Positions 15,202-36,001 of a DNA stretch of 37,443 nt are shown one piece after another. The number at the start of each line of letters is the position of its first letter. The first letter of the stretch is position 1. A program made the position numbers and the translations under genes. The notes beneath the pieces are model-generated. The model did no database searches, had not been told where the DNA came from, and worked only from the letters and a program-made list of their open reading frames with translations. Location of the stretch: the IMG/VR virus record IMGVR_UViG_3300033141_003149, positions 1 through 37,443 of that record; one strand, 5' to 3'. The stretch comes from a virus.

Positions 15202-17067
15202 TTAGAGTCTCTTTATGTATCCACCTTCAACCCAAAATATACGAATAGGTGAATTCTCTGGCACGCTGGGAGGCCCTGCTGCGTTGGTAGCGGCTGCGGC
15301 TACGACTTGGGTAGTCTGGCCTATGTCAACGAGCCACTTGCGAACACGGGTACTGTCAGCGGCTACACTGATGTTCAATTCGTCCAATAGTAGCAGACCC
15401 ACTCCGGTTACGTGGCTGATAGCCTCTGCAACTGCCATTCTTACGCGCGAGGTTTCAGCGCCTCCAAGTGTCCATAGCTGTTTTTTGTCGGCCTGTACGA
15501 GGCTCAAGTCATCCAGGAAGAGGATATCAACTCCCATCATCGGCGCATGTTCTTTTAACCGGGCATTCAGGGTCCCCAGCTTTTCCGCCACAAGCTCACC
15601 GGGGATTCCGTCTGGGGCAAGCAGCGTACATAGCGCGTTATAATGTTCACGCCTTGTCTCTGTTTCTTCAATCTTTGCCCGAGTTGCATCCAATGTTGCC
15701 TTGGTTGCCTGGTTCCAGGTAATCGCTGATTGTGCGATTTTGAGATATTTGACCTTTTCTTCGATTGCTTCTATTGAAATTTCAAGAGCTTCTTTTTTCT
15801 CACCTGCTTCAGGCGCGGCATTTTCCAGCTTTTCCTCAATCTCCTTGATTTCTTTTTCCAAATCGGCAATGTCGTCTTTTGTTTTCATGCAGCCTGCAGC
15901 CTTTTTCGAGAGATCATCCCATTTTTCTTGTTCGGGGAACTCTTTTTCCTCGACTGCTTTGATCCTCTCTGATATTTTGTCAATCTCTTTTTGCTGTTCG
16001 GACCAATCCGGCTCAATAGCTGGACACATTTTATGTCCAGATGCTCCAGGTATGGGACATGCAAGATTGCTTTTCCAGTTCTTTTTATTTTCTGCCAAGA
16101 GGTCTTCGGTTGTCGCTAGCAAATTTTCAAGGGCTGCAACGTCCTCTTTGACTTTGGTGTCAAACTTTTTCTTTGCTTCCTTCAGCTCAGTGGCCTCAGC
16201 GGTATCCTCTTTTGTCCACTTTTCCGCTTTTGCGAGTTCAGCCTTTTCTGTCTGGTATTCTGACAGTTGTTTCTCTGCCTCCTTCTTGTCTGCGTCTGAC
16301 AGGGCCTTGATTCCCCCAAGCTCCTTGTAGAGTTCCTTGAGGCGTTTCTTGTGGGTTGCTTCTTGTTTTTCAAGGGGTTTTTTCTTATGGGTTGCCATGA
16401 TGGTATCCATGAGGACTTGCGTGTTTCCTAGGGCAACCTGGGTGATCAATTTGGGCTTATCGCCCTCAAGGGCCTTAATTCTTTGCCCTGCTTCGCGGCG
16501 TGAATTGTAGGCTATGCTATAGCCGGCATCCCATCCGAGGTGATCAATTTCTTTAATGACTTCTTCATTCCATAATTCTTGACAGACATTTTCGGCATAT
16601 CCTTTTTCGTAGAGGGCGATAAAGGCGTCTTTCAGGGTGGGCTTTAGTCCCAGGGCCTTGATGATGAGCTTTTTTTGATGTGCAGGGTCCAAATCAAAAT
16701 AGTAATTTGCACTGAGGCATGCTGACAGAATATGCGGGTCAACGCCCAACTGAGCACCAATTTGGACAGGGGAGGGCCCGGACCTATTTGTTTTGGCCAG
16801 GGTACGCTTGATGTTGAAAGGAGATGTCCCTGCTTGGCCGGTAATCGTCACCGAGGCTGTTTTGCACTGGTCGTTAATTGCCTCGATGAAAGCTCCCTTG
16901 GACTGGCCTTGGATACTATCAGTCAGGGCGTAGATTGTTGCGTCCAGCAGAGATGTTTTGCCGGTTTCGTTGTGGCCAAGGAAAAGGTTACACTTGGATG
17001 ATAACTCTATTTCTGCTGCCCGAATTCTTTTAAACCCTTTTATTTTAACGTTATTGATGCGAATCAT
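15202..17067 (-). CDS. SbcC/Rad50-like coiled-coil ATPase
   Basis: 621 aa ABC-type ATPase of the SMC/SbcC/RecF group, which organises or processes DNA ends. Walker A is GHNETGKTS (residues 31-39). The ABC signature region is LGGAETSRVRMAVAEAI (about 530-546) and Walker B is GLLLLDELN (557-565). Between them is a long Lys/Glu/Ala-rich coiled coil (about 200-480). A hook-like turn near residues 333-347 reads CPIPGASGHKMCP, with two Cys 11 residues apart instead of the usual CxxC. The protein is shorter than bacterial SbcC, as expected for phage versions. The ATG overlaps the stop of an HNH-like gene (ATGA). No SbcD partner is seen in this window. Confidence 0.85.
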   Translation of the reverse strand: MIRINNVKIKGFKRIRAAEIELSSKCNLFLGHNETGKTSLLDATIYALTDSIQGQSKGAFIEAINDQCKTASVTITGQAGTSPFNIKRTLAKTNRSGPSPVQIGAQLGVDPHILSACLSANYYFDLDPAHQKKLIIKALGLKPTLKDAFIALYEKGYAENVCQELWNEEVIKEIDHLGWDAGYSIAYNSRREAGQRIKALEGDKPKLITQVALGNTQVLMDTIMATHKKKPLEKQEATHKKRLKELYKELGGIKALSDADKKEAEKQLSEYQTEKAELAKAEKWTKEDTAEATELKEAKKKFDTKVKEDVAALENLLATTEDLLAENKKNWKSNLACPIPGASGHKMCPAIEPDWSEQQKEIDKISERIKAVEEKEFPEQEKWDDLSKKAAGCMKTKDDIADLEKEIKEIEEKLENAAPEAGEKKEALEISIEAIEEKVKYLKIAQSAITWNQATKATLDATRAKIEETETRREHYNALCTLLAPDGIPGELVAEKLGTLNARLKEHAPMMGVDILFLDDLSLVQADKKQLWTLGGAETSRVRMAVAEAISHVTGVGLLLLDELNISVAADSTRVRKWLVDIGQTTQVVAAAATNAAGPPSVPENSPIRIFWVEGGYIKRL

Positions 17068-17549
17068 ATTATTTTTTCCTCAATTCGTGTGAATGTCCAG
17101 CCCTGGCAGGTTTTGCGACGGCCTGCAAGACAACTAGAAATATCGCCCTGACGTAATCCATGCTCTTTAGCGAACTGATGCTGGTTATTAGAACAGAATA
17201 TTTCTTCTTTAGGGCTTATAGCTTGAAACCGTTTTTGTTTATTGGGGCCGCAAGATTTAGGTCTTGAATTAATTTGCTGTTCATGTTTTGTACTCCATTG
17301 GCAATTACTAGGTTCGTAATTGCCATCATTATCTGTGCGATCTATAGAATATTCAGGTCCTAATCGTTCGCCCATATCCGCAAAGAAATTCTCGAACGAA
17401 CACAACCAGCGCCTGCAAACAATGATTCCACGACCGCCGTAGTCTTTGTATTGTGAATGGTTCGGATTTTGGCATCTGGCTTTCATGTTAGCCCAGCTTC
17501 GATGTTCTAACGATTCCCCACCCCTTCTACAATGTCCGTGTATTAACAT
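17064..17549 (-). CDS. HNH-like homing-type protein, family member 2
   Basis: 161 aa. It carries the same blocks as its paralogues: HGHCRRGGESLEHRSWANM, RCQNP, YGGRGIIVCRRW, SIDRTDNDGNYEPSNCQW, KRFQAISPKEEIFCSNNQH and a GWTF ending. The gene is wedged between the Gp3-like gene (3 bases upstream) and the SbcC-like gene, whose start codon overlaps its stop as ATGA. The neighbouring genes are intact, so the insertion created no visible damage. Confidence 0.7.
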   Translation of the reverse strand: MLIHGHCRRGGESLEHRSWANMKARCQNPNHSQYKDYGGRGIIVCRRWLCSFENFFADMGERLGPEYSIDRTDNDGNYEPSNCQWSTKHEQQINSRPKSCGPNKQKRFQAISPKEEIFCSNNQHQFAKEHGLRQGDISSCLAGRRKTCQGWTFTRIEEKII

Positions 17550-17552
17550 GAA

Positions 17553-18707
17553 CTAGACCCAACCAAAGTTATCATCAGATACCGGTTCATCCAAAACCTC
17601 TCCCTCTTCGACGGGGGGTTCCTCGCCGGGAGGTATTTCGCCGGAAATATCCTCTGTTTGTTCTGCTTCGGGCGTTTTTTCTGCGGCTAAAGCGGCGGCT
17701 TTGGTTTCTTCCTCTTCCTTCTTCTTTTTCCTTTTGGCAGCGGCGGCTTTAGCCTTTTCCTGTTTCTCTTTCAATTTATCAGCATCCGCTCTAGCCAATT
17801 CCGCGGCCGTAGGTTCCTGCTCTTCGGCCTTTTCCTCTTTGGCGGGTCCCTCGGGCTCCTTTTTCGTCTCCCGGGTCTTTTCGGTCATGGCGCCGGCGTC
17901 GGCCTTAGCTCTTTCGGTTTCTGTCTCAGGGGGAAAAAATTCTTCAGCGATCTCTTTTTCCTCTTCGGCCGCTATCTCCTGATCCGGGACTAAGTCCTCA
18001 TCATGTCCGATCATGGGACACTGTTTAGCTGTTTCGGCCAAAGCTATGGCGGACCCTGCAAAGATAAGGCTAACGGTATATACAGTGACAGGACCTCGCG
18101 GCAACTGTGTCGTTTTTGGAAACAGTTTCATCATTAAGGGAATGCCGGATAGCCTGCCGGCTACTCTCTTGATAAGCATAAGGCTTCCGAGGATGTCCTG
18201 TACGGAATTCCAACCAGTGGTACGGTAAACCCAAGATCCTCCGATCATGTCCATACTCTGCAAAACCACATTAAGCCGGCCATAAGGCTTACAGGGCGTA
18301 TTACCTTTATAGTCCTGGTCGAGCCTTGGGCAGGGGCAAGTGGTTTCTTCACCACTCTTGAGAACAATGGCCTTCTCGCCGTCACCGGTGCAAATCCGGG
18401 TTTTTCCCTGGTAGCAGTTGTATGTAGTGTAAAAATTGCTGTCAATGTCGTCAAACAACAGATATACCGGAATCGTGGTCAGGTGATCGGCAGGCTCGTT
18501 GACTATTTCCGCAATTTGTTCCATGAGCGGAATATTGGGAATGAAGTTTCCGGTATTGTCCCTTTCTGTGGTCGTTATCAAAAAGTGGTCTAACTTGGCC
18601 GGGAGTCGGTAGGTACTTTTTTCGTCTTTTGTTTTGCGTAGTTCACCGAGCCTGCCGATCTTGATTTTTCCTTGCTCACAAAGCTTGGGTTGCAATCCTT
18701 TTATCAT
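17553..18707 (-). CDS. Gp3-like recombination protein with acidic/basic tail
   Basis: 384 aa. The N-terminal ~230 residues match the phage Gp3-like family (named after the phiC31 recombination directionality factor, often annotated as hydrolase or metal-binding). They start IKGLQPKLCEQGKIKIGRLGE, then YRLPAKLDHFLITTTERD. A Cys-rich block follows with Cys in CTGDG, in TTCPCPRL and in NTPCKPYGRL, a likely zinc site. From about residue 235 the sequence is a long Glu/Lys/Ala/Pro-rich low-complexity tail ending DDNFGWV; an acidic tail with a hydrophobic tip recalls ssDNA-binding proteins. Since it lies between RecE-like and SbcC-like genes and no integrase is seen, a role in recombination or ssDNA handling seems likelier than excision control. 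Confidence 0.6.
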   Translation of the reverse strand: MIKGLQPKLCEQGKIKIGRLGELRKTKDEKSTYRLPAKLDHFLITTTERDNTGNFIPNIPLMEQIAEIVNEPADHLTTIPVYLLFDDIDSNFYTTYNCYQGKTRICTGDGEKAIVLKSGEETTCPCPRLDQDYKGNTPCKPYGRLNVVLQSMDMIGGSWVYRTTGWNSVQDILGSLMLIKRVAGRLSGIPLMMKLFPKTTQLPRGPVTVYTVSLIFAGSAIALAETAKQCPMIGHDEDLVPDQEIAAEEEKEIAEEFFPPETETERAKADAGAMTEKTRETKKEPEGPAKEEKAEEQEPTAAELARADADKLKEKQEKAKAAAAKRKKKKEEEETKAAALAAEKTPEAEQTEDISGEIPPGEEPPVEEGEVLDEPVSDDNFGWV

Positions 18708-18719
18708 AATTTTTCTCCT

Positions 18720-19496
18720 TTATGTTAGAAAATCAAATATCCAGTTTTTTGTAGTTTTTCGTTTTTTATATAAACAAGCAGATATGTTTGAAGAGTAAAG
18801 TTCATGCTTTCTCGCAAATTCACTCTGGTTATTATCTTCAAACCATTCACCCGTATTTTGATTGAATGCCCAAAACCAATGTTGTTTCGTGGGACCACGA
18901 GATCTGGATCTACGGTTATTTGCTTGTTCTTGACGAGATGCCCAGCGAAAATTATTAGGTTCATAGTTTCCGTCATTATCAGGCCAGCGGTCTATGGTCA
19001 TTCCTTTAGGCGGATTTCCTACGTCAGCATAGAAATTCTCAAACGAATGCCAGCGTTTACAAACTTTGATTCCCCGACCACCGTAATCTTTATAGGCTGG
19101 ATTTCTTGGATTAATACAGCGCTGAATTATGCCTTTCCAAATTTTATGTATTGGAGTTCCAGACATTCCGTGTGTTGTAAAATGTTTTTTAGCTAATTCT
19201 TTTACAAGACATCCACAACTTTGGGTGTGACCTGATCTAAGATGATAAGAATTTATTTCACAAACTTTCCCACAGCTACACAAGCACAGCCAAGCAATTG
19301 ATCTTCTTTGTCTTTTCTCTGTAGGCTCAATAGCCACCAGTCGCCCGAATCTCTGTCCTGAAATGTCTTTCGCGTTGCTATGTAATTTCATGCTAATTTT
19401 ATGGAAGAACTCCTGATGCTGCTTAGGACCTGCCGCGAGAGGAGGTTCCGGTTTCCCGGACATCAGGAGTTCAAATTTTAGATTTCGGGGTTTCAC
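18720..19496 (-). CDS. HNH-like homing-type protein with zinc domain, family member 3
   Basis: 258 aa from a GTG at 19496; a Met 35 codons downstream (19391) fits the usual family start better but has no ribosome binding site. After the extension comes DISGQRFGRLVAIEP, then a zinc-ribbon-like block CLCSCGKVCE...SGHTQSCGC. The shared blocks follow: [37 protein letters not shown] and a C-terminal [10 protein letters not shown] module. The N-terminal 35 codons contain a 12-bp inverted repeat. It lies between the RecE-like and Gp3-like genes; the latter starts 12 bases after its stop with its own AAAGGAG box. Confidence 0.7.
   Translation of the reverse strand: MKPRNLKFELLMSGKPEPPLAAGPKQHQEFFHKISMKLHSNAKDISGQRFGRLVAIEPTEKRQRRSIAWLCLCSCGKVCEINSYHLRSGHTQSCGCLVKELAKKHFTTHGMSGTPIHKIWKGIIQRCINPRNPAYKDYGGRGIKVCKRWHSFENFYADVGNPPKGMTIDRWPDNDGNYEPNNFRWASRQEQANNRRSRSRGPTKQHWFWAFNQNTGEWFEDNNQSEFARKHELYSSNISACLYKKRKTTKNWIFDFLT
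19407..19472 (-). other. Stem-loop with GAAA-capped inner hairpin
   Basis: GAACTCCTGATG (19407-19418) is the exact reverse complement of CATCAGGAGTTC (19461-19472). On the minus strand the 42-base interior contains TCCGG-GAAA-CCGGA, a hairpin with a GNRA-type tetraloop, and a possible ACCT/AGGT stem, giving a three-way-junction shape. It lies in the N-terminal extension of the HNH-like ORF. It may be a structured RNA or regulatory hairpin. Confidence 0.55.
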
Positions 19497-19547
19497 GGTA
19501 AATCCTAAGCATATTTTTATACTACTAAATTTTAAGAAAAAGTCAAG

Positions 19548-20357
19548 TTAATCATCCGCTCCAAGGATAACTATTTCATTCATATATCCCGGCCAAACGT
19601 TATTTTTTATACACTCGATATATTTTTCAAGATCAATGTCAATCTGTTGCCGTGCTGCTTCTATTATTTCATCAGAGAGCATATAAATCGCAGTTTCATA
19701 GGGACTGAAATTTTCCACAACTATGAAAATAAAAGCTTCCGTGCGTCTGTTTACTCCGGCCGCTTGATACGCAGCATTTAATCCGCGCTCGTACCATGCT
19801 GCCTGTCTATCGTATCCCCAGCGTTTCACTTCGCGCAAAAAACCTTGAGGGCTGCCTGCTTGAGAACTTTTCAAATCTATTATAATATCGTCTGTACGAA
19901 TATAATCTGGTCTGATTTTACAGCGTAAACCTGAGGCTGGATCATCCCAAAAAATGGACATTTCTGGGGTTCCCCCTGTAAGCAGTTCATGCGCTACTGA
20001 ACAAGATGTATTTTTAAAGGCATCTGCCATGTTTATTACATTATTATATTGACTAGGTGTTAATGCTATGGCCTTCGGATTCGCTTTGTCCCACTTAACA
20101 CGTCCAGCAGATCCTACACGCGGGGCAGAGCCTTTGCCGAATTGAGCTTCAAAAAGTTCTGGTTGCAGGATGGAGCAATGCAAAGCACTTCCTTCTGTTT
20201 GCGTCCCGGTTGCCGGCCTGTCGTTGTCGCGCCAGTAGGCAAATTTTTTAGCCGATTGGCTGAAGATTTTGAGACCGGAATTATTGATGGCGGAATCAGC
20301 GAGGTACTCGTGAAAAGGGATGTCCTGGAAAAAACCGGGGCTGAATGTTTTGGTCAT
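19548..20357 (-). CDS. RecE-like PD-(D/E)XK exonuclease
   Basis: 269 aa. It belongs to the PD-(D/E)XK nuclease superfamily close to exodeoxyribonuclease VIII/DUF3799, which resects double-stranded ends for phage recombination. Seen: an N-terminal YLADSAINNSGLKIF segment, GSALH near 57-60, IRPD with Asp151, DLK with Asp161 and Lys163 as the catalytic core, and YDRQAAWY with Gln185 as the downstream Q motif. The ATG overlaps the stop of the HNH-AP2 gene (ATGA). It is the first conserved gene of the minus-strand recombination operon. Confidence 0.8.
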   Translation of the reverse strand: MTKTFSPGFFQDIPFHEYLADSAINNSGLKIFSQSAKKFAYWRDNDRPATGTQTEGSALHCSILQPELFEAQFGKGSAPRVGSAGRVKWDKANPKAIALTPSQYNNVINMADAFKNTSCSVAHELLTGGTPEMSIFWDDPASGLRCKIRPDYIRTDDIIIDLKSSQAGSPQGFLREVKRWGYDRQAAWYERGLNAAYQAAGVNRRTEAFIFIVVENFSPYETAIYMLSDEIIEAARQQIDIDLEKYIECIKNNVWPGYMNEIVILGADD

Positions 20358-20899
20358 ATCTCATACCCCATGGTTTTTAGCTTAACCCGGTTTACGTTTA
20401 AGTGATTACAGGTCCAGTCTGAACATTTATCCTCAAATTTGCAACGGGCTAAGGCTGCTTCTTCACTGGTATCATGACAACCGAGGTAAATCGTTTTCCC
20501 ACGAATGGTAATATATGCTTGCCATTTTTTAGCACATTTATTTCGATAAACACCCGTGAATCCACTGGTTGATGCTGAATTAACCCCGTAATTTTGCATA
20601 TTGCATGATCTGGTAACGTGTCTTAAATTTTTCCAACGGTTATCGTCTCGGATGCCATTTAAATGATCAACATCATTTTCAGGTAAGTAGCCTTCCATAT
20701 ACAAGAATGCAAGTCGGTGAGCCTGATATCTTTTGTTGTCAATTGAGATTGTGACATAGCCACAACTATTATGAGATTTAGCGATATCGCCGATTTTTAC
20801 ACGACGAGACAGGCTGACCCTCCAAACAAAAATCCCTGTTTTGGGTGAATACTCAAGAACTTTGCACAACCTTTCTTGTGTCAGTAATTTTGTTTCCAT
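20354..20899 (-). CDS. HNH homing endonuclease with AP2 domain
   Basis: 181 aa from the ATG at 20899, which has an AAGAGG box in front; an upstream in-frame ATG at 20917 contains that box and is less likely. A canonical HNH_3 nuclease block is visible: YQAHRLAFLYMEGYLP, then VDHLNGIRDDNRWKNLRHV with the catalytic D-H pair and later N residues. An AP2-type DNA-binding domain follows (GFTGVYRNKCAKKWQAYI, then KTIYLGCHDTSEEAALA). It is a free-standing homing endonuclease at the head of the recombination operon, immediately downstream of the divergent control region. It overlaps the RecE-like start by four bases. Confidence 0.9.
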   Translation of the reverse strand: METKLLTQERLCKVLEYSPKTGIFVWRVSLSRRVKIGDIAKSHNSCGYVTISIDNKRYQAHRLAFLYMEGYLPENDVDHLNGIRDDNRWKNLRHVTRSCNMQNYGVNSASTSGFTGVYRNKCAKKWQAYITIRGKTIYLGCHDTSEEAALARCKFEDKCSDWTCNHLNVNRVKLKTMGYEI

Positions 20900-20910
20900 T
20901 TTTAAGCCTC

Positions 20911-20967
20911 TTGACATTCAAAAAAATACGATTATTATTTATAATAATTATTTATAATAATTAGTCA
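20911..20967. promoter_or_regulatory. Divergent control region with tandem dyads
   Basis: A 13-bp unit ATTATTTATAATA occurs twice in tandem (20934-20946, 20947-20959); each unit with its flank forms a dyad ATTAT-TTATA-ATAAT. On the plus strand TTGACA at 20911-20916 is a strong -35, with AT-rich -10 candidates in the repeats. On the minus strand TTGACT at 20967-20962 has ATTATA 17 bases away. The layout suits overlapping divergent promoters with operator sites, probably bound by the Cro-like protein encoded next door. Confidence 0.65.
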
Positions 20968-20999
20968 AGAAAAATCTTAAAAATAAAAAGGAAAAATTG

Positions 21000-21218
21000 A
21001 TGAAGCTTTCAAAGTGGATAAAAGGTACAACCTCTGAAGAAATTCGGAAATTAGCGGAAAGGGTTGGTTGCCACCATCTTTACCTTTATCAGGTAGCAAA
21101 AGATAGATGTTCTGCCGGCTTGGCCAAGAAGATCGAAAAGGCCACAAAAGCAATGAATCCTCGTCGGGTTGTCCAGAAACATGAATTACGGCCAGACATT
21201 TGGTCAAAAAGCGAATAA
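21000..21218 (+). CDS. Cro/YdaS-like helix-turn-helix repressor
   Basis: 72 aa from the ATG at 21000, preceded by AAGGA; a TTG one codon upstream is unlikely. The sequence MKLSKWIKG, then EEIRKLAERVGCHHLYLYQVA (helix-turn-helix), GLAKKIEKAT and VVQKHELRPDIW matches the YdaS/Cro-like family, whose C-terminal motif includes elRPDiW. Such proteins bind dyads in divergent phage promoters and switch early transcription. The repeats just upstream are the obvious target. It is transcribed away from the recombination operon. Confidence 0.85.
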   Translation: MKLSKWIKGTTSEEIRKLAERVGCHHLYLYQVAKDRCSAGLAKKIEKATKAMNPRRVVQKHELRPDIWSKSE

Positions 21219-21236
21219 AACCAGCGGGTTGGCTTT

Positions 21237-21860
21237 ATGATTATTGCAAAACAAAGATTTGGCAGATTGACCACAATCAAATCTTTCAAAAAATTCAAAA
21301 ATGGGCAGAAAAGGCTTGTTTGGTATTGTTCGTGTAGTTGTGGAAAATTTTGTGAGGTTCGTGAAGATAGTCTCAAAAGCGGTTATACGGAAAGTTGTGG
21401 CTGTTTCCAAAAAGAAAGAGTTACAACACATGGCATGAAAAATACTTCAATTTATAAAATTTGGGTATGCATGATCCAACGCTGCGAAAATCCGAACGAT
21501 TCAGCATATAAGTGGTATGGTGGTCGAGGCATAAAAGTCTGTGAGCGTTGGCGTAATTCCTTCGAAACTTTTTATGCTGACGTCGGAGATCCACCCGATG
21601 GAATGACTCTTGACAGGTGGCCGGACAACGACGGAGACTATGGACCTACAAACTGGAGATGGGCGACAAGGAGAGAGCAGGCAGGCAATACAAGAAATTT
21701 GCGTTGGTTCCGTGCATGGCATAAAGACAGCATGGCTCAACATATGAGCAATAATCAACACGAGTTTGCGAGAAAATATGGATTAAACAATACAAATATT
21801 TGTGCTTGTCTTCATGGTAGACAAAGTGTCCATAGGGGTTGGACATTTCAGAGGATATAA
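21237..21860 (+). CDS. HNH-like homing-type protein with zinc domain, family member 4
   Basis: 207 aa and the only plus-strand member of the five-copy family. It begins AKQRFGRLTTIKS, then a zinc-ribbon-like block CSCSCGKFCE...SGYTESCGC, closest to the member at 18720-19496. The shared blocks follow: [42 protein letters not shown] and SNNQHEFARKYGL...HRGWTF. The start has only a weak ribosome binding site. It follows the Cro-like gene by 18 bases and precedes a structured intergenic stretch and a methyltransferase remnant, so it may have landed with loss of neighbouring DNA. Confidence 0.7.
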   Translation: MIIAKQRFGRLTTIKSFKKFKNGQKRLVWYCSCSCGKFCEVREDSLKSGYTESCGCFQKERVTTHGMKNTSIYKIWVCMIQRCENPNDSAYKWYGGRGIKVCERWRNSFETFYADVGDPPDGMTLDRWPDNDGDYGPTNWRWATRREQAGNTRNLRWFRAWHKDSMAQHMSNNQHEFARKYGLNNTNICACLHGRQSVHRGWTFQRI

Positions 21861-21865
21861 ACCTT

Positions 21866-21969
21866 ACATCCCATGTCTATGTTTCGCCTCCGCCAAGGGT
21901 GAGGACCAATAGGATAAGGTGGCGGCTGCCTGGAAGTGTCAGCCATAAAAGGAAATGGACATGGGGTGT
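21866..21969. repeat. Structured intergenic stretch bounded by inverted repeats
   Basis: ACATCCCATGTC (21866-21877) and GACATGGGGTGT (21958-21969) are inverted repeats with one mismatch. Inside, CCGCCA (21890-21895 region) can pair with TGGCGG (21920-21925), and GGCTG pairs with CAGCC slightly downstream. The compact nested pairing suggests a folded RNA or a leftover of insertion. I see no gene in it. Confidence 0.45.
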
Positions 21970-21981
21970 ATTTAATTTCAC

Positions 21982-22113
21982 ATGAAAAAAATAGAGTGTC
22001 CTGAATTTTGTTTGCTGAACAAGCGTCTGCCTACAAGCGAAGGGGTCTGTGCCCACTGCAGACGTGATTGTCCGTTTGCGGGTAAGCGTAGAAGCTATCG
22101 GAAGAAAAAATAA
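21982..22113 (+). CDS. Small Cys-rich zinc-binding-type protein
   Basis: 43 aa. The sequence begins MKKIECPEFCLLNKRLP, continues GVCAHCRRDCPFAGK and ends in a basic tail RRSYRKKK. Five Cys residues arranged C-x3-C then C-x2-C-x3-C suggest one zinc site, and the basic tail suggests nucleic-acid binding. The ribosome binding site is poor, so expression is uncertain. It lies between the HNH-like gene and the methyltransferase remnant. Confidence 0.5.
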   Translation: MKKIECPEFCLLNKRLPTSEGVCAHCRRDCPFAGKRRSYRKKK

Positions 22114-22214
22114 AACTTGGGCGGTCCGGAGTGGGTCTGGATCTGTCTGCGGAGTATTTGTGGGATATGGCCAAGGAAAAGATTGAGGCGCCAATGCAAA
22201 GGGAGATGTTCTAA
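22092..22214 (+). pseudogene. C-terminal remnant of a beta-class DNA methyltransferase
   Basis: The open frame from 22092 encodes KLSEEKIKLGRSGVGLDLS and then AEYLWDMAKEKIEAPMQREMF before a stop at 22212-22214. The pattern K-L-G-R-x-x-x-G-x-D-L-S-x-E-Y-x-x-x-A-x-x-x-I is the usual C-terminal end of N6-adenine or N4-cytosine methyltransferases of the beta type (the region after the FxGSGTT motif). The catalytic DPPY motif and the rest of the enzyme are absent. A short product from the GTG at 22131 could still be made but would lack activity. Confidence 0.6.
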
Positions 22215-22215
22215 A

Positions 22216-22920
22216 ATGAGTAAAGCAAAATTCAACAAGACGAACAGTAACATAGGTTGGGCAGCATGGTCCTGGAATCCAGTAACCGGATGTCTCGGGC
22301 CTGCTGGGAACGGAAAACATTGCCCATATTGCTATGCCAAAGCCATGGCCGATAGGTTCCAACAAGATTTCACGCCGATCTTTCATCCTGAACGCCTAGA
22401 GGCTCCAAAGAATACACCACTTCCCAAAAAGGGAAATGCTCGAGTATTTGTCTGCTCCATGGGTGAGCTTTTTGGTCCCTGGGTCCCGGATGAATGGATT
22501 GAGCGGATACTTAAAGTAGTCCGGGCGAATCCTCAATGGACCTTCTTGTTTTTGACGAAGTTTCCCGAGAGACTGCCTGAATTGGATTGGCCTGATAATG
22601 CATGGATAGGAGCCACCATTGATCGACAAGAGAGGATACATAAAACAATAGATGCTTTCATGTCTCTCAAAAAATATGGTACAGAAATAAAGAACAAACT
22701 ATTTCTTTCTTGTGAGCCTATGCTGGAAGAAATCAAAATTCCCATGCTGGGATGGTTGAATATTGATTGGTTAATAGTGGGGGCCCTGTCTAAAGGCGCA
22801 AAAAAGGTACAACCGGATCCGGCATGGGTTGAATCTTTATTTTTTAATGCCCGTCAATACGATGTGCCTGTTTGGTTTAAGGATAATCTGGTCTTTAGGC
22901 CCCAGGAGGTCCCTAAATGA
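22216..22920 (+). CDS. Phage Gp37/Gp68-like (DUF5131) protein
   Basis: 234 aa from the ATG at 22216, which follows a GGGAGA box; longer in-frame starts run into the methyltransferase remnant. It begins NIGWAAWSWNPVTGC and has HCPYCYAKAMADR, a Cys pattern (GC...C-x2-C) like that of radical-SAM-type TIM barrels. VFVCSMGELFGPWVPDEW, FLFLTKFPERL and WIGATIDRQE follow, then LFLSCEPML. This is the known phage Gp37/Gp68 family, whose reaction is unknown; a DNA or nucleotide modification has been suggested only by context. It overlaps the next gene by ATGA. Confidence 0.8.
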   Translation: MSKAKFNKTNSNIGWAAWSWNPVTGCLGPAGNGKHCPYCYAKAMADRFQQDFTPIFHPERLEAPKNTPLPKKGNARVFVCSMGELFGPWVPDEWIERILKVVRANPQWTFLFLTKFPERLPELDWPDNAWIGATIDRQERIHKTIDAFMSLKKYGTEIKNKLFLSCEPMLEEIKIPMLGWLNIDWLIVGALSKGAKKVQPDPAWVESLFFNARQYDVPVWFKDNLVFRPQEVPK

Positions 22921-23135
22921 TTGAACCTAATATTGCTGATATTAACGATCTAAATGAACGGCTTTCTGGTGAAGAGTTGCGGTCTCTTAAACAAGTGGAT
23001 GTTTATCTCAATCGGGGTGGGCGGATCGAAAAAAGGCACGGCCTAATTTGTTTGGCTGACGAGAATGCTGAATACATAGTTGGTGGAAAAACGACACAAG
23101 AAATGTTGGAAAGATTAGATTCTTTAATGACCTAA
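22917..23135 (+). CDS. Small hypothetical protein coupled to the Gp37/Gp68-like gene
   Basis: 72 aa, function unknown. It starts at an ATGA overlap with the upstream stop. The sequence is acidic and helical at both ends (INDLNERLSGEELRSLKQVDVYL and TTQEMLERLDSLM) with a short beta-like centre (HGLICLADENAEYIVGG). The stop lies at the foot of a terminator that serves the opposite strand. Confidence 0.6.
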   Translation: MIEPNIADINDLNERLSGEELRSLKQVDVYLNRGGRIEKRHGLICLADENAEYIVGGKTTQEMLERLDSLMT

Positions 23136-23170
23136 AAAATCCGCCACTGGCTAAACTTAACCAATGGCGG
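23134..23170 (-). terminator. Intrinsic terminator of the small-gene operon
   Basis: CCGCCACTGG (23141-23150) and CCAATGGCGG (23161-23170) form a stem with one mismatch. On the minus strand it is followed by a run of six T residues (23139-23134). It ends the minus-strand transcription unit that includes 23193-25762. Confidence 0.8.
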
Positions 23171-23192
23171 GAACACGAGGAGAAGTGGAAAT

Positions 23193-23441
23193 TTATTTCT
23201 TCTTACTTAGTTGACAAGTTTTTCCATTACGTTCGAAAACCCATTGCCCGTCCTTTACATATACTACCTTTACATCATGAAAGGACATTAGATCCAGGGC
23301 CTCTTCTTTGCTCATGTTCGGAGATCCAAGACCCTGGACCTGGTGTTCTGGTAAATCGATTAGAAGGAAATGCCAGGCTGCAAAACTAAGACAGACTGCG
23401 ATTGCTAGACTGACACATGCCTTGCCTATTTTTTTTATCAT
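23193..23441 (-). CDS. Small single-span membrane protein
   Basis: 82 aa. A hydrophobic N-terminal segment (CVSLAIAVCLSFAAWHFLLI, residues 9-28) serves as membrane anchor or uncleaved signal. The rest is soluble: SKEEALDLMSFHDVKVVY, then VKDGQWVFERNGKTCQLS, a short beta hairpin with one Cys. No family recognised. A GGAGG box stands before the ATG, inside the end of the upstream gene. It is the last gene before the terminator. An inner-membrane or periplasmic early phage function is plausible. Confidence 0.65.
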   Translation of the reverse strand: MIKKIGKACVSLAIAVCLSFAAWHFLLIDLPEHQVQGLGSPNMSKEEALDLMSFHDVKVVYVKDGQWVFERNGKTCQLSKKK

Positions 23442-23442
23442 T

Positions 23443-23574
23443 TCAAAAACCTCCGATTAGCGAATACCACAGGCCACAATCGGGACACTTCCATAGCCGG
23501 AACATACTTATTTCCAGGTCGGTAGGATTTTGATTCTTATACGGCCGGTAGGCATGATTACAGGTTACAGACAT
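23443..23574 (-). CDS. 43-aa zinc-finger-like protein
   Basis: The sequence starts MSVTCNHAYRPYKNQNP and ends FRLWKCPDCGLWYSLIGGF. Cys5 and His7 together with CPDC near residues 30-33 make a plausible single zinc site, as in small zinc-ribbon phage proteins. The 3' end supplies the GGAGG box of the next gene, and the stop is one base from that gene's start, supporting a real gene. The predicted pseudoknot copy 2 ends about 15 bases upstream of its start codon. Confidence 0.6.
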   Translation of the reverse strand: MSVTCNHAYRPYKNQNPTDLEISMFRLWKCPDCGLWYSLIGGF

Positions 23575-23588
23575 TTTTATCTCAAGTT

Positions 23589-23624
23589 GCCCGGCGTTCT
23601 AATCCCTGGGCCGGGCGTCCAGGG
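23589..23624 (-). ncRNA. Predicted H-type pseudoknot, copy 2
   Basis: On the minus strand CCCTGG (23624-23619) pairs with CCAGGG (23609-23604), and GCCCGGC (23616-23610) pairs with GCCGGGC (23595-23589). Loop 1 is AC and loop 3 is ATTAGAAC. Only the minus strand has loop lengths compatible with a normal H-type pseudoknot. Both stems differ from copy 1 by compensatory changes while loop 3 is kept. Confidence 0.6.
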
Positions 23625-23643
23625 TTAAGGAGGAGATGGAAAA

Positions 23644-24126
23644 TTAATTAGCATATTCAAATTTCCAACCTTTTACAGATTTAAAGTGTGGTGTTTTACG
23701 CAGACAAGCTGAAATATTGCTCGGATTTAATCCATACCGTCTTGCAAATTCACTCTGATTATTAGAAATAATTTGCTTGCCATTTAACTTCCAAGCCATA
23801 AATCGGCGTTGTTTAGCTGGACCACAGGATTGAGATCGACAATTGTTCCGCTGTTCCTTGCGAGTAGCCCATCGACAATTTCCTGGCTCATAATTACCAT
23901 TGTTGTCAATTCTCTCTAAGGTAAGACCAGAACTTGGTTTTAGTTCCATATCTTCAAGAAAGTTCTCAAACCTTTTCCAGCGTTCACATACTTTTATTCC
24001 ACGGCCACCATAGCGATGGTAGGACTTGCAATTTTGGTTTAAACAGCGACGCTTCATGTCATACCAGGCTTGATATTCTGGTGTTCGTTTGCCTTTTTTG
24101 CAATGGCCGTGCTTTATTTTTCCCAT
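23644..24126 (-). CDS. HNH-like homing-type protein, family member 5
   Basis: 160 aa from the ATG at 24126; a longer start at 24150 would overlap the upstream gene. Blocks: [87 protein letters not shown] and VKGWKF. It is most like the member at 13232-13729 and, like it, is followed on the same strand by a pseudoknot element. It sits between small genes of an operon without breaking them. Confidence 0.7.
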
Positions 24127-24131
24127 ATTAA

Positions 24132-24353
24132 TTATTGGCTCCACTCCCATCTGTCTTCCATAAAATTGTATTTGAGTTCACTGTCAGGATCTTCATAGCT
24201 CCAGTGATCTTCCATGGGATTGTATTTAAGGTCATTCTGTGAGGATTCATAGCTCCAACTGTCTTCCATGTAATTATAGCGGAGTTCGGAATCATCAGCA
24301 AAGGCAGGGCCAGACAAGATAAGGATAAGGGCCATGGTCATTAAAATTTTCAT
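24132..24353 (-). CDS. Exported protein with three YN-MED-W repeats
   Basis: 73 aa with a signal peptide ([19 protein letters not shown], cleavage near AFA-DD). The mature part is only three copies of an 18-residue unit: [28 protein letters not shown] and [14 protein letters not shown]. The consensus is [ED]-L-[RK]-Y-N-x-M-E-D-x-W. Short tyrosine/tryptophan repeats with this YN...W pattern occur in exported proteins of unknown role. A ribosome binding site (agagga) is present. It presumably acts in the periplasm or envelope of the infected cell. Confidence 0.65.
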
Positions 24354-28045: not shown

Positions 28046-28318
28046 ATGATTCCACTTTCAGGTAAGCTCGGAGATGATCTGAGAAAAAAGTACGGCAATG
28101 CTCAAAACTTGCCAATTATTGAGCAAGAAAAGCCAAGTCTTTCGGAATGCTACGGGTGCGAGCGTTACGAGTGTGGGTCTGCTTTGCCTTATGTCGGTGT
28201 CATCCATTGGTGCAAATATGAGAAATTCGACCGGATCAAGAAGAGGTTTGTTACTCATTACGCAAATATTGACTTGCTTAAAACTTGCCCAAAAAAGAGC
28301 AAAAAAAGGCAGTTTTAG
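28046..28318 (+). CDS. Cys-containing small hypothetical protein
   Basis: 90 aa. The centre reads CYGCERYECGS...HWCKYEKFD, and the C-terminus is basic (KTCPKKSKKRQF). Four to five Cys suggest one zinc site. GAGGG boxes lie within 15 bases before the ATG. Function unknown; it lies in the replication operon. Confidence 0.6.
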   Translation: MIPLSGKLGDDLRKKYGNAQNLPIIEQEKPSLSECYGCERYECGSALPYVGVIHWCKYEKFDRIKKRFVTHYANIDLLKTCPKKSKKRQF

Positions 28319-28352: not shown

Positions 28353-28544
28353 ATGAAAATCACAAACGAAAAAAACTGTTATTGCCACACCTGTAAAAGA
28401 AATTTCCATTATTTTGGAATCACGCGGCACAGGGCAATGCACCGAGATCGAAAAGAAGACTGTAAGATAACGTATACCCATGGAGATACTTACATTCATA
28501 GATTTTCTATTCAAAAGGAGGTTGATTTATGGCAAAAGGACTAA
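28353..28544 (+). CDS. C2H2-type zinc-finger-like protein
   Basis: 63 aa. CYCHTCKRNFHYFGITRHRAMH has the C-x2-C...H-x3-H spacing of a classical C2H2 finger with the conserved aromatic and hydrophobic core. A short tail follows. No good ribosome binding site is visible. Its 3' end overlaps the ssb 5' remnant. DNA or RNA binding is likely. Confidence 0.6.
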   Translation: MKITNEKNCYCHTCKRNFHYFGITRHRAMHRDRKEDCKITYTHGDTYIHRFSIQKEVDLWQKD

Positions 28545-28573
28545 ACAAGGCGGAAATTATCGGCAGGCCTTAG
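28529..28573 (+). pseudogene. Duplicated, truncated 5' end of ssb
   Basis: A strong AAGGAGG box and ATG start MAKGLNKAEIIGRP followed by TAG. The intact ssb 700 bases downstream begins MSKGLNRAELICRLGADVEL. Reading on past the stop gives V-D-V against A-D-V, so homology extends to about 28588. This is the original start of ssb, now cut off by an HNH gene. It may still be translated into a 14-residue peptide. Confidence 0.8.
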
Positions 28574-28595
28574 GTTGATGTTTTGTTTCAGTGTG

Positions 28596-28620
28596 GTATA
28601 TTGGGACACAACAAATATAC
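28596..28620 (+). other. Hairpin before the HNH gene in ssb
   Basis: GTATATT (28596-28602) and AATATAC (28614-28620) form a 7-bp stem with an 11-base loop, ending 3 bases before the GGAGG box of the HNH gene. It could limit translation of that gene. Confidence 0.5.
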
Positions 28621-28635
28621 AGTGGAGGTGTATAA

Positions 28636-29280
28636 ATGTTTTCAGAAAATGTTGTGGCCAGATATTGGAAATATGTAATAGTAAAAAATGGTTGCTGGGG
28701 TTGGAGTGGATCAAAATCATTAGGCTATGGGCAACTTGCAGTTACGAGAGGAATGGCTACTGCAAAAGCTCATAGAATATCTTGGTTTATTCATTATGGG
28801 CGCATTCCTAAAGGTCTAAGTGTTTGTCATAAGTGTGATAATCCTGAGTGTAGTAATCCTGAGCATCTTTTTCTTGGAACCCATAAAGAGAATATGGTTG
28901 ATGCACACAAAAAAGGACGGCTTCGTTTTTATAAACAAGGTTCAGGAGAAAAAAATAACGTAGCAAAATGTACCATGGAACAAATAAAAAAAATAAGAGA
29001 AGAATTCGCAGCAGGTGCAACATTGGCCGAATTATCTAATAAATATCAAAATACCAATATGATTAGGATAGTCAGAAATAAATCATATATTGATCCAGAT
29101 TTTAAACCAATAAATGGGAATGAAAAACCGAGACCATTTCGAAGAAAATTAACAAAAAAAACAATTAATTATATTATTGAGTCATCGTTATCATCAAGAA
29201 AAATAGCTAAAAAGCTTGGTGTGTCGAAGACTCTTATACTTTCAGCCAGAAAAGGAGATTTGTATGAGCAAGGGACTTAA
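28636..29280 (+). CDS. HNH homing endonuclease inserted at the 5' end of ssb
   Basis: 214 aa. A canonical HNH_3 block is visible: NGCWGWSGSKS, AHRISWFIHYGRIPKGL, VCHKCDNPECSNPEHLFLGT and ENMVDAHKKGRL, with the catalytic His pair and Cys residues of this subfamily. Two helix-turn-helix-like segments follow (MEQIKKIREEFAAGATLAEL and SSRKIAKKLGVSKTLILSA) that would recognise the target. A GGAGG box precedes the ATG. Its last codons overlap the start of the intact ssb by 17 bases, and a truncated copy of the ssb start lies just upstream. This is the arrangement expected from homing into ssb. Confidence 0.9.
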   Translation: MFSENVVARYWKYVIVKNGCWGWSGSKSLGYGQLAVTRGMATAKAHRISWFIHYGRIPKGLSVCHKCDNPECSNPEHLFLGTHKENMVDAHKKGRLRFYKQGSGEKNNVAKCTMEQIKKIREEFAAGATLAELSNKYQNTNMIRIVRNKSYIDPDFKPINGNEKPRPFRRKLTKKTINYIIESSLSSRKIAKKLGVSKTLILSARKGDLYEQGT

Positions 29281-29725
29281 TCGTGCTGAACTTATTTGTA
29301 GGCTTGGAGCAGATGTTGAACTCAAATACACACAATCCGGGACCGCTGTAGCCAATATGTCAGTGGCCACCAATCATTCAGTTAAGAGCGGCGATGATTG
29401 GGAAGAAAAAACCGAATGGCATCGTATCGTGGTCTGGAGCAAGATGGCAGAGGCTTGTGCTGAGTATCTTTCTAAGGGCAGCCAGGTTTATATTTCGGGG
29501 CGACTGCAGACGCGATCCTGGGATGATAAGGACGGCGTCAAGCGATGGGCAACGGAAATTGTGGCACAGGAGGTCCTCTTCCTGGACAGCAAAGGCCAGG
29601 GCCAGAAATCAGACCGGCCTCCGGCGCCTCCAGTGGATGAAGAGAAGGGCCAGGGCCAGCAGGCTGGTGGATATGATGCGAGTGAGGAAGATCCGGGGGG
29701 CATGGGAGCGGACGTCCCTTTCTAG
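29264..29725 (+). CDS. ssb: Single-stranded DNA-binding protein
   Basis: 153 aa from the ATG at 29264 with an AAAGGAG box located in the HNH gene. SSB protects single-stranded DNA during replication and recombination. The OB fold is clear: NRAELICRLGADVELKYTQS, then VANMSVATNHS, EWHRIVVWSKMAEACAEYL and GSQVYISGRLQTRSWDDKDG. A Gln/Gly-rich linker leads to the acidic tip GADVPF, the usual partner-binding tail. The first ~20 codons are a second version of the start found at 28529. An intrinsic terminator follows the stop. Confidence 0.92.
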   Translation: MSKGLNRAELICRLGADVELKYTQSGTAVANMSVATNHSVKSGDDWEEKTEWHRIVVWSKMAEACAEYLSKGSQVYISGRLQTRSWDDKDGVKRWATEIVAQEVLFLDSKGQGQKSDRPPAPPVDEEKGQGQQAGGYDASEEDPGGMGADVPF

Positions 29726-29727
29726 CC

Positions 29728-29753
29728 ACACTGCTTATTTAAGCAGTGTTTTT
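29728..29753 (+). terminator. Intrinsic terminator after ssb
   Basis: ACACTGCTT (29728-29736) pairs perfectly with AAGCAGTGT (29741-29749) around a four-base loop, followed by a T run. It closes the replication transcript after ssb. Confidence 0.85.
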
Positions 29754-29760
29754 AAAACCA

Positions 29761-29776
29761 CTATACATTTGTATAG
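29761..29776. promoter_or_regulatory. Short dyad between terminator and next gene
   Basis: CTATAC-ATTT-GTATAG is a perfect 6-bp dyad placed between the ssb terminator and the next ribosome binding site. It could be an operator or a small RNA hairpin. No clear promoter consensus overlaps it. Confidence 0.4.
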
Positions 29777-29795
29777 CAGCCAAAGGAGCTTAGAG

Positions 29796-30104
29796 ATGAT
29801 CACAAAAGAGACAGCGGAAAAGATTGTGTCCTGTTACCAGGAAATTGAGACCGGTGAGGGGTTGCTGGAAAAGCTGGAAAAACCAATAGAAGGTACTGTA
29901 AATCTTCTTCTTGATTTGGGTGTTCTGGTTGGCGATCGCTCCCGCTGGCTTTGCAAGATACGGCCAGGGCTGGCCTTGTGTATAACACGGGCATACACAG
30001 CCGAGAAAAAGAAAGAACTTATCGAGGCCGGCGAAAAGGCGAAAGATGAACTGGGGTTGGGGGGCGTTCGCATAGTCATCCCAGGACAGATACCGCCAGG
30101 ATAA
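29796..30104 (+). CDS. Small hypothetical protein
   Basis: 102 aa from the ATG at 29796 with an AAAGGAG box; longer in-frame starts would overlap ssb and are discounted. The sequence is mostly helical: ETAEKIVSCYQEIETGEGLL, then TVNLLLDLGVL, RPGLALCITRAY and EKAKDELGLG. No family recognised. It is 4 bases before the helicase gene and probably co-transcribed with it. Confidence 0.6.
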   Translation: MITKETAEKIVSCYQEIETGEGLLEKLEKPIEGTVNLLLDLGVLVGDRSRWLCKIRPGLALCITRAYTAEKKKELIEAGEKAKDELGLGGVRIVIPGQIPPG

Positions 30105-33069: not shown

Positions 33070-33573
33070 ATGGCTACTTGCAAAACCAAATACAAAGAAG
33101 ATTATCCTCAAATAGCTGAGGTCGTCTGCGAAGAGGGCGGGCTTTCCTTGCGTCAACTGGGCAAGGCCCTGGGGGGTGTCTGTGCTAAAACCATACTTGA
33201 CTGGAAGAAAAAGTATCCGGAATTCGAAGAGGCTGTGAACCGAGGCACTGCGGCATTCGATAAATCAACGGCTAAAAACTCCCTTCAGAAACGATTACAG
33301 GGCTATTTTTACAACGAGACTACCTCTACCCTGGTCACCGATCCAAAAACAAAAATAGCCAAAATGACAGTCACTCGAATAGTCAAGAAGCACATGCCGG
33401 CTGACGTTCATGCCCTGACTCTCTTCTTGATTAACAGGGACGCCGAAAACTGGAAATATCGTCAGCAGATAGATGTTAATGTCCTGCAAAAACTTTCCGA
33501 TAAGGAAATTGATAAGCGGATTTCCTTGATTGTGGACAATACCAAAAAAAGGAAGAAGCGTGCAACGGGCTGA
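33070..33573 (+). CDS. terS: Terminase small subunit
   Basis: 167 aa from the ATG at 33070; a TTG three codons earlier is possible. It recognises the packaging site and brings DNA to the large subunit. The N-terminal CEEGGLSLRQLGKALGG, then CAKTILDWKKKYPEFEEAVN, is a helix-turn-helix like that of Terminase_2-type small subunits. A central helical oligomerisation part and a basic C-terminus (DNTKKRKKRATG) follow. It overlaps the large-subunit gene by 14 bases, the usual arrangement. Confidence 0.8.
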   Translation: MATCKTKYKEDYPQIAEVVCEEGGLSLRQLGKALGGVCAKTILDWKKKYPEFEEAVNRGTAAFDKSTAKNSLQKRLQGYFYNETTSTLVTDPKTKIAKMTVTRIVKKHMPADVHALTLFLINRDAENWKYRQQIDVNVLQKLSDKEIDKRISLIVDNTKKRKKRATG

Positions 33574-36001
33574 CAATACAGCTTTAGACTTGGGCTATGG
33601 CCAGTATAGCCGTATCCAAAAAGAGAACCTTTTGGCGCTCCTCCAGGAGAAAGAGAGGCGTGTCAATTCAAGGAAAATTCTATCTTTGTATCCTGATAAT
33701 GGGCCATTAAGGCGTGAATTATACCGGCCGCATGTGACCTTTTTCGAAGCTGGGGCCAAGTTTCGTCAACGTTGTTTCATGGCAGCTAACCGGGTTGGGA
33801 AGACTGAGGGCGTCGGCGGCTATGAACTGACTTTGCATCTTACCGGTCAATACCCTAAATGGTGGAAAGGTAAAAGATTTAATCGACCAATAAGGGCCTG
33901 GGCAGCAGGCACGACCGGCCAAACAACCAGGGATATCGTGCAGCGTAAATTGTTGGGTCCTATAAATAATATCGGGACCGGCCTAATTCCTGGTGATTGT
34001 ATAGCCGACTATAAAAAGAAGGCTGGTAATGTCCCGGATGCCATAGAGACCGTTTATGTCAAGCATATAACAGGTGGAATTTCAAGTTTGGGTCTCAAGT
34101 CCTACGAACAGGGGCGTAAGGCCTTTGAGGGCGATGAGCAAGACGTTGTTTTGCTTGACGAAGAATCGCCCATTGATATTTATACTGAGTGCCTAACGCG
34201 GACCATGACCACTCAGGGCATTGTGATGCTTCTGTTCACTCCCTTGCAGGGCCTATCTGATACTGTTCTCATGTTCATGCCTGGTGGCCAGATACCGGCA
34301 GAGATGGGCAAGCGTTTTGTGATTCAGGCCTCGTGGGATGACGCGCCTCACCTTTCGGAACAAGACAAGCAGGATATCATTGATTCTTATTTACCTCACG
34401 AGCGGGATGCTCGGTCGAAAGGTATCCCTCAGCTTGGATCCGGTCGAATATATCCAGTTTCAGAGGATGATCTGCTTGTCGATGACTTTGTGATTCCCGA
34501 TCATTGGATACAGGCTTATGGCTTTGACGTTGGGTGGAAAGCAACGGCTGCGGTCTGGGGGGCCCTGAACCGCGAATCCGATGTGCTTTATTTCCATTCA
34601 TGTTACAAGCAGGGCCAGGAAAAACCGTTAATACATGCCGAGGCCGTTAAAGCCCGTGGGGAGTGGGTGCCGGGATTATCCGATCCGGCCGCTCTTGGTC
34701 GAGGTCAGAAGGATGGGAGCCAGCTCATGGTTGAGTATAATGACCTGGGCTTAAAACTGGTCCCTGCAGAAAATCCGGTCGAAGCTGGAATCTTGAAGCT
34801 GTATAAACGAATGACTACAGGACGGCTCAAGGTGTTCCGGTCAATGGTCCAATGGCTTGAAGAGTTCAGAATTTACCGACGTGATGAAAAAGGCAGGGTA
34901 ATCAAAGAATTTGATCATCTCATGGACTGCCTACACCCAGATACTCTTGTTATTACCAATCAGGGAAAAATCAGAATAAAAGACTTGGTGGGTACAGAGG
35001 GCCTGGTTTTGAGTACAGACGGAAAGTGGTTGCCTTATGAAAATTGTAAGCGATATGGGCAAAATAAGTCTGTAGTGGAGATTTTGTTTAACGATGGAAG
35101 CAAAGTTGTTTGTACGCCGGACCATAAGTTTTTGACGTCTAGGGGATGGGTTGAGGCTATTGATTTGCAAGACACGGATTGTTATAGTGCCGTATCTTAT
35201 ACAATTTCGGAGACAAATAAATGCAAATCATTGAACTGTCTGAAAAGAAGCAAGAATTTAAGGGAAAGGTTTATTGTCTGTACGGAAAATATTTCCGAAA
35301 AAATGGGGTTAGCCTGCACCGTGAGGTGTGGAAAAGCCAAAACGGGGAAATTCCTGAAGGATATGTGGTCCACCATATTGATGAAAATAGATCAAACAAC
35401 GACATTTCTAATCTGGACTTATTGTTACTCGCTGAACATACTTCGCTTCACCAAAAAGGACATGATCGACCAGTTTCTCCCGAAGCTCTCACTGCAGCCG
35501 CAAAATGGCATGGTAGCACAGATGGAATTGAATGGCACAAACAGCACTACGAAGACTTTAAAGACAGACTTCACCAAAAGGCCAAATTTGTTTGCGAGGT
35601 TTGCGGAAAGAAATTTATTACACAAATTACAGGGCAAAATAGATTCTGTTCAAACAGCTGTAAATCAGCTTGGAGACGTAAAGCGGGACTCGATAATATT
35701 GAAAGAACCTGTTCAGAATGTGGGAAAAAATTTATCTCGAATAAATACAATAAGACACAAACATGTTCAAGGGAATGCGGTGCTAAAATGTCTGGCCGTA
35801 AAAGACGCGGGAAAAAGCGACGTATATTGTCTTGAAGTACCAGAATCACATGCCTTCGCAGTTGAAAGCGGAGCAATAGTCCATAATTGTTCCCGATATC
35901 TCAATAATTCAATCGTGGAAATAGGAATAACCCGGCCAGAAGACGAGCTCGTAATCGTTCCTGGCTCAAGTAGTAAGTTGGCCTCGGGATGGGCAAGATG
36001 A
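33560..36001 (+). CDS. terL: Terminase large subunit interrupted by an intein
   Basis: 813 aa precursor from the GTG at 33560, which has a GGAAG box; a TTG at 33530 is an alternative. After removal of a 320-aa intein the mature protein is 493 aa, normal for a large terminase. It packages DNA with an N-terminal ATPase and cuts it with a C-terminal RNase H-like nuclease. Walker A is AANRVGKT (residues 75-82), Walker B is VVLLDEES (about 196-203), and the first nuclease Asp is in GFDVGW (Asp323). The intein sits directly after DHLMD, the motif holding a nuclease metal ligand, and before CSRYLNN, so nuclease activity must depend on splicing. Confidence 0.9.
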   Translation: MQRADNTALDLGYGQYSRIQKENLLALLQEKERRVNSRKILSLYPDNGPLRRELYRPHVTFFEAGAKFRQRCFMAANRVGKTEGVGGYELTLHLTGQYPKWWKGKRFNRPIRAWAAGTTGQTTRDIVQRKLLGPINNIGTGLIPGDCIADYKKKAGNVPDAIETVYVKHITGGISSLGLKSYEQGRKAFEGDEQDVVLLDEESPIDIYTECLTRTMTTQGIVMLLFTPLQGLSDTVLMFMPGGQIPAEMGKRFVIQASWDDAPHLSEQDKQDIIDSYLPHERDARSKGIPQLGSGRIYPVSEDDLLVDDFVIPDHWIQAYGFDVGWKATAAVWGALNRESDVLYFHSCYKQGQEKPLIHAEAVKARGEWVPGLSDPAALGRGQKDGSQLMVEYNDLGLKLVPAENPVEAGILKLYKRMTTGRLKVFRSMVQWLEEFRIYRRDEKGRVIKEFDHLMDCLHPDTLVITNQGKIRIKDLVGTEGLVLSTDGKWLPYENCKRYGQNKSVVEILFNDGSKVVCTPDHKFLTSRGWVEAIDLQDTDCYSAVSYTISETNKCKSLNCLKRSKNLRERFIVCTENISEKMGLACTVRCGKAKTGKFLKDMWSTILMKIDQTTTFLIWTYCYSLNILRFTKKDMIDQFLPKLSLQPQNGMVAQMELNGTNSTTKTLKTDFTKRPNLFARFAERNLLHKLQGKIDSVQTAVNQLGDVKRDSIILKEPVQNVGKNLSRINTIRHKHVQGNAVLKCLAVKDAGKSDVYCLEVPESHAFAVESGAIVHNCSRYLNNSIVEIGITRPEDELVIVPGSSSKLASGWAR
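34928..35887 (+). mobile_element. Intein in terL (320 aa)
   Basis: It starts at Cys in CLHPDTLVI (block A) and has CTPDHKFLTSRGW (block B with the TPDH motif) near residues 60-72. It ends with VYCLEVPESHAFAVESG (block F) and VHN followed by Cys (block G and the +1 residue). All residues needed for protein splicing are present. Residues about 98-302 have no recognisable endonuclease in the terminase frame; that stretch also encodes an HNH protein in another frame. Confidence 0.92.
35221..35835 (+). CDS. HNH homing endonuclease nested out of frame in the intein
   Basis: 204 aa, read in a different frame from terL over the same DNA. A canonical HNH_3 block is present: KYFRKNGVSLHREVWKSQNG, IPEGYVVHHIDENRSNNDIS and LDLLLLAEHTSLHQKGH, with the His pair and Asn of the active site. 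The C-terminal part has two zinc-ribbon-like CxxC units (CEVCGKKFI and CSECGKKFI, with CSNSC and CSREC partners). GGAG at 35209-35212 stands 8 bases before the ATG, so it can be translated independently. The stop falls at the start of intein block F. It would spread the intein by cutting intein-free terL genes. Confidence 0.88.
   Translation: MQIIELSEKKQEFKGKVYCLYGKYFRKNGVSLHREVWKSQNGEIPEGYVVHHIDENRSNNDISNLDLLLLAEHTSLHQKGHDRPVSPEALTAAAKWHGSTDGIEWHKQHYEDFKDRLHQKAKFVCEVCGKKFITQITGQNRFCSNSCKSAWRRKAGLDNIERTCSECGKKFISNKYNKTQTCSRECGAKMSGRKRRGKKRRILS

Follow-up and report, generated by a model that had tools for sequence, protein, structure and literature searches.

The window analyzed here is the whole of the IMG/VR viral record IMGVR_UViG_3300033141_003149 (37,443 bases). 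The features of its ssb locus lie on the + strand, downstream of a conserved gene (28046-28318, +) that shares 59% identity with positions 3047-3316 of a related contig, L097, and served as a marker of synteny between the two. The start of ssb is present twice. The left copy, MAKGLNKAEIIGRP, runs for 14 codons to a TAG stop at 28571-28573 (28529-28573; supported by the sequence, by alignment, and by profile and general tests) and has its own ribosome-binding site, AAAAGGAGGT (28513-28522). Immediately 3' of it is a promoter-like site, TTGATG-16-TATATT (28575-28602), recognized by consensus match only, as is a similar site at the equivalent position in Escherichia coli phage HC6. A ribosome-binding site, GGAGGTG (28624-28630), then leads into an HNH_3 endonuclease gene of 214 amino acids (28636-29280). 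The complete ssb (29264-29725; 153 amino acids; Pfam SSB E 8.8e-36; 63% identity to the L097 ssb) begins within this gene: its start, MSKGLNRAELICRLGADV (29264-29317; sequence and alignment), overlaps the HNH gene by 17 bp, and its ribosome-binding site, AAAAGGAGAT (29250-29259), lies wholly inside it. This layout confirms the sequence-only reading, which had described a truncated ssb start with an excellent ribosome-binding site, then an HNH gene, and a downstream ssb whose own ribosome-binding site is embedded in that gene. A 63-codon ORF of unknown family (28353-28544) is also found between the upstream conserved gene and the left copy, and no counterpart of it was seen in L097.

The HNH protein matches Pfam HNH_3 with an E-value of 9e-15 (54.4 bits, against a cut-off of 24.8). 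The conserved HNH residues are present in the alignment, and the C-terminal part is helix-turn-helix-like. Comparison by sequence with solved structures revealed no convincing resemblance. No group I or II intron was detected at the locus: Rfam searches of window positions 28400-29800 and of L168 2300-3500 gave no intron RNA match up to E = 1, and ssb reads without splicing. An intein at ssb was ruled out, as the HNH gene and ssb each have a start and a reading frame of their own.

The left copy and the start at 29264 align without gaps over 18 codons, with identity at 34/54 nucleotides and 11/18 residues, in agreement with the proposal that the downstream ssb opens with a diverged second copy. 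With the ribosome-binding sites included, the alignment scored 51.5, and none of 1191 other segments of the window exceeded 36; with the coding part alone, 3 of 3000 dinucleotide shuffles reached the observed score. The left copy scored 17.6 against an ssb-start profile (maximum 14.1 across 1758 control regions) and 52 in a general peptide test (null maximum 40). Chance similarity of the two starts is thus excluded by three controls. The 3' limit of the left copy is less certain. Homology had been proposed to continue to ~28588, and the coding remnant was borne out, but the similarity beyond its stop (28574-28582, VDV in the gap-free alignment) depends on GATGTT, which falls within the promoter-like site. 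Because this site occupies 28575-28602, the extension is doubtful; VDV is either a continuation of the remnant or part of the element's promoter, and the end of the remnant may lie near 28570 rather than at 28588.

The closest relative of the window is L097 (contig JAGLZA010000023.1), which comes from a WOR-3 genome bin, belongs to the same phage group and is collinear with the window (63% identity in ssb, 69% in the helicase, and 82% in a small terminase-like protein). L097 has a single ssb start, a different HNH gene lies upstream of its ssb, and a search of its genome for the window's HNH gene gave no match. An attempt to polarize the window's two starts by L097 failed (31 versus 35 of 54 nucleotides), as L097 is too distant. 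Searching phage records at the nucleotide level with the window returned just a 50-bp ssb match. No close viral relative came up when the helicase alone or an alignment of the small terminase-like protein served as query, nor did a degenerate pattern written for the left start lead to one. In the absence of a close uninterrupted relative, we infer only by analogy that the left start is the resident one and the right start imported.

Some further features of these two genomes were observed. The window's large terminase ORF (33530-36001) contains an intein (Pfam Intein_splicing, 34927-35891) that is absent from the collinear L097, and a 204-codon HNH_3 reading frame (35221-35835) overlaps this intein on the same strand in a different frame. 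HNH genes of another family (phrog_374/3377-like) are scattered over window positions 13232-24150, five of them detected with the L097 HNH query, and about a dozen copies of that family occur on the 54-kb L097 contig, partly at different places. At the 3' end of the L097 helicase gene, the sequence coding for the helicase C-terminus (DMGW...) is present twice, at 6605-6636 and 7089-7120, with an HNH gene in between, mirroring the arrangement at ssb.

A search for further ssb-HNH junctions of equal layout found many. Among viral contigs carrying this HNH family, nearly all full-length relatives sit directly upstream of ssb, and under a fixed profile test 28 of the 56 HNH-ssb pairs had a remnant scoring above the 99% threshold set by the controls; this test misses yong1-type remnants with just 5-6 codons left. 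Some remnants are short peptides ended by a stop (e.g., MASRGVNKVILIGGDYG, MASVNKVILM, and MLNKVMLIGH), and others continue in frame into the HNH protein, as in Pasteurella phage Pmp11 and its relatives (MAGVNKVII-DEFELYL) and in Hafnia phage yong1 (MASRG-VIDLY). L341 and L295 have HNH genes of the same subfamily as the window's (phrog_1872), again arranged in this way at ssb. No remnant was visible in L044, Pocitis76, and L281, in which a window-type HNH gene precedes ssb, or in Flavonifractor phage Chenonceau, in which an unrelated small HNH gene does.

The most direct evidence on how this layout arises comes from enterobacterial phages in which filled and empty sites can be compared. In E. 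coli phages HC6 and ZCEC08 and Klebsiella phages BUCT541 and KlebP_265, a resident start (MARGVNKVI or similar, then a stop) is followed by the HNH gene and by a new start, MSSIGINKCIILGRV, in frame with the ssb body. Salmonella phage VSt472, with flanks as in the filled phages, has the empty site ATGGCACGCGGCGTAAATAAGGTAATTATTGTCGGC...GGTAACGACCC; the filled site of HC6 reads ATGGCACGCGGCGTAAATAAAGTAATTA, HNH gene, and a new start joining at GGTAACGACCC. A single ssb start was likewise found in the other uninterrupted relatives checked (Seszw_1, DS8, ZX4, VR6602, KpV2811, and SCNJ1-C). At 98.7-99.8% identity, the four filled phages share a 594-bp unit made up of the HNH gene and codons 1-15 of the new ssb start; their upstream 600 bp are 47-93% identical and their ssb bodies 75-91%. 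Their flanks match different empty relatives (e.g., VSt472, ZX4, Seszw_1, and VR6602). Since the element is nearly identical across phages with differing flanks, the replacement 5' end has travelled with the nuclease gene, and a similar contrast between element and flanks was seen in other phage groups. It is mainly these relatives, with their shared unit and differing flanks, that support the earlier suggestion that the element carries a replacement 5' end and so keeps ssb functional.

The replacement start is identical at 45/45 nucleotides in the four filled phages, yet only about 50% like the resident starts, which themselves differ. It is therefore element-borne and derived from another ssb lineage. 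For these four phages, this upholds the proposal that the replacement came from a different lineage; for the window itself the matter remains unsettled, L097 being roughly as distant from one copy as from the other. Apart from about 110 bp 5' and 60-90 bp 3' of the element, BUCT541 resembles ZX4, a conversion-like pattern that, judged from the sequences, would be expected for short conversion tracts. The HC6-type element is also polymorphic in presence and absence, with 7 filled records and most of >100 close relatives matching the uninterrupted ssb over its whole length; a search for the HC6 cassette in plasmids and E. coli genomes found none that carries it. Two criteria applied to free-standing phage homing endonucleases are satisfied: presence/absence polymorphism at one site between related genomes, and movement independent of flanks with co-conversion, the latter for HC6-type elements rather than for the insertion in the window.

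The remnants and replacements differ in a consistent manner at the first strand of the OB fold. Asn-Lys is present there in 27/28 scored remnants, while N-K-[VAIMST] is kept in 0/28 replacements, which have NR, NKC, CK or NQC instead. The Asn-Lys-Val motif thus differs between remnant and replacement in all 28 scored pairs, usually by a change of K to R; in the window, NK has become NR. Across clusters, an intact N-K-[VAIMST] occurs in 1/29 clusters of ssb located behind these HNH genes, compared with 30/49 other ssb clusters (Fisher p 1.5e-7), although this p-value overstates independence, given that the cassettes share ancestry; the comparison ssb set is also partly bacterial. The change of the motif in 28/28 pairs suggests that the new copy escapes cleavage. 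The simplest reading, in which both cleavage and resistance are inferred, is that the nuclease recognizes the Asn-Lys-Val codons and that the replacement has been altered accordingly.

Taken together, these results make it highly likely that a single mobile homing cassette comprises the HNH gene plus the opening codons of the ssb that follows it, and that the window carries one such insertion, with cleavage and homing being inferred. Support for the class is strong; the window's own case is well supported, by analogy. In cassette-free phages, the HNH protein would cut ssb at its 5' coding end, and repair of the break from a cassette-bearing genome would copy in the HNH gene together with the altered ssb start; both steps are inferences. 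As the comparison of filled and empty enterobacterial sites shows, the new start joins the recipient's ssb body in frame, and the recipient's own first codons remain upstream as a dead remnant; the new start restores ssb. The changed Asn-Lys-Val codons probably make the new start resistant to the nuclease, an inference from a change that is itself recurrent. The HNH gene may be expressed from a small putative promoter 3' of the remnant or, where the two are fused, through the remnant.

An alternative is that an HNH-ssb module was swapped in at ssb by ordinary phage recombination, with the nuclease as a passenger and no homing. Phage genomes are mosaic, the Erf-type recombinase gene that adjoins in the enterobacterial phages could join short homologies, and the remnant is absent from some HNH-ssb pairs. 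We nevertheless regard a module swap as improbable: just ~15 ssb codons move with the HNH gene in the enterobacterial set while the ssb body stays resident, the insertion recurs within the first ~5-17 ssb codons with several HNH types, and no scored pair keeps the conserved motif unaltered. Still less credible is a role for the left copy as a functional leader peptide, coupling or regulating translation of the HNH gene and ssb. Its excellent ribosome-binding site would fit such a role, but remnants vary in length and ending (about 5 to 17 codons at ssb and about 36 at a uracil-DNA glycosylase gene), with chance stops closing some and others running on into the HNH protein, and in uninterrupted relatives the same sequence is the real start of ssb. 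An ancestral tandem duplication of ssb, followed by loss of most of the upstream copy and arrival of an HNH gene in between, would account for the presence of two starts. We give this the least credence of all, in view of the single copy in L097 and the empty enterobacterial relatives and of an empty site that is continuous across both junctions.

Beyond ssb, a gene-end duplication scan of all fetched HNH loci placed 22/158 downstream-gene cases above the 99% null threshold. A window-type HNH gene accompanies a duplicated uracil-DNA glycosylase gene start in L019 (~2820-3550; remnant of about 36 codons) and, with a weaker signal, a duplicated helicase gene start in L267 (~2260-3000). Matches in L263 and L264 were discarded as spurious, reflecting chance similarity inside the HNH gene itself. 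In a mirror image of this layout, the 3' end of the upstream gene is replaced and the native remnant lies downstream in L053 (2661-3617), L072 (1314-3515), L210 (3425-4369), and L329 (1791-2968). The non-ssb and 3' cases are single genomes without an empty-site comparison; scattered as they are, they suggest a general strategy. We think it likely, though with less assurance than for the ssb cassette itself, that gene-rebuilding HNH cassettes are widespread in phages as natural counterparts of home-and-rescue drives, homing into conserved gene ends (ssb above all, but uracil-DNA glycosylase, helicase, terminase, and other genes as well) and supplying a cleavage-resistant 5' or 3' replacement, which makes essential genes safe homing sites.

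Such cassettes show how an endonuclease gene with neither intron nor intein can inhabit an essential gene, namely by bringing a repaired, altered gene end, and they account for the many phage ssb genes that start inside an HNH gene. They also indicate that homing gives rise to chimeric replication genes in phages. The nuclease target is predicted to cover the Asn-Lys-Val codons, and the filled and empty pairs of enterobacterial phages make the mechanism directly testable in culture.

In the literature, of which few subscription journals and preprints were covered, we found no description of this layout in phages. Free-standing phage homing endonucleases are known, including T4 segG beside gene 32, mobE in Aeh1 nrdA, and mobA in T4 gene 60 (PMC2988022). 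Like the present cassettes, these are intronless HNH or GIY-YIG genes located beside or inside conserved DNA-metabolism genes, and some contain signals that serve the gene downstream; unlike them, they lie between genes or split a gene into two working pieces, and a replacement gene end is not described there (PMC2988022). Mobile elements described as introns also bring a homologous stretch of the host gene, but no intron was detected at the phage locus. Engineered HomeR home-and-rescue drives similarly home into an essential gene with a re-coded gene end, although they are man-made, Cas9-based, and deployed in insects, so that the likeness is one of logic only (PMC7968924). The closest known case is that of fungal mitochondrial mobile endonuclease ORFs that replace the C-terminus of a gene, as in atp6, atp9, cox2, and nad3 of Glomus sp. 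(PMC3630166) and, as cited there, in atp6 of Allomyces macrogynus (Paquin et al., 1994). There too, a conserved gene has received an endonuclease gene and a diverged replacement end, and its native end persists as a remnant, which close relatives match better than they match the inserted copy (PMC3630166). The fungal ORFs encode LAGLIDADG or GIY-YIG nucleases in mitochondrial DNA and act at the 3' end; the phage cassettes, with HNH_3 nucleases in phage genomes, do not meet that part of the definition and carry altered codons at the presumed target, but they do share its central feature, a diverged replacement end with a native remnant, at the 5' instead of the 3' end.
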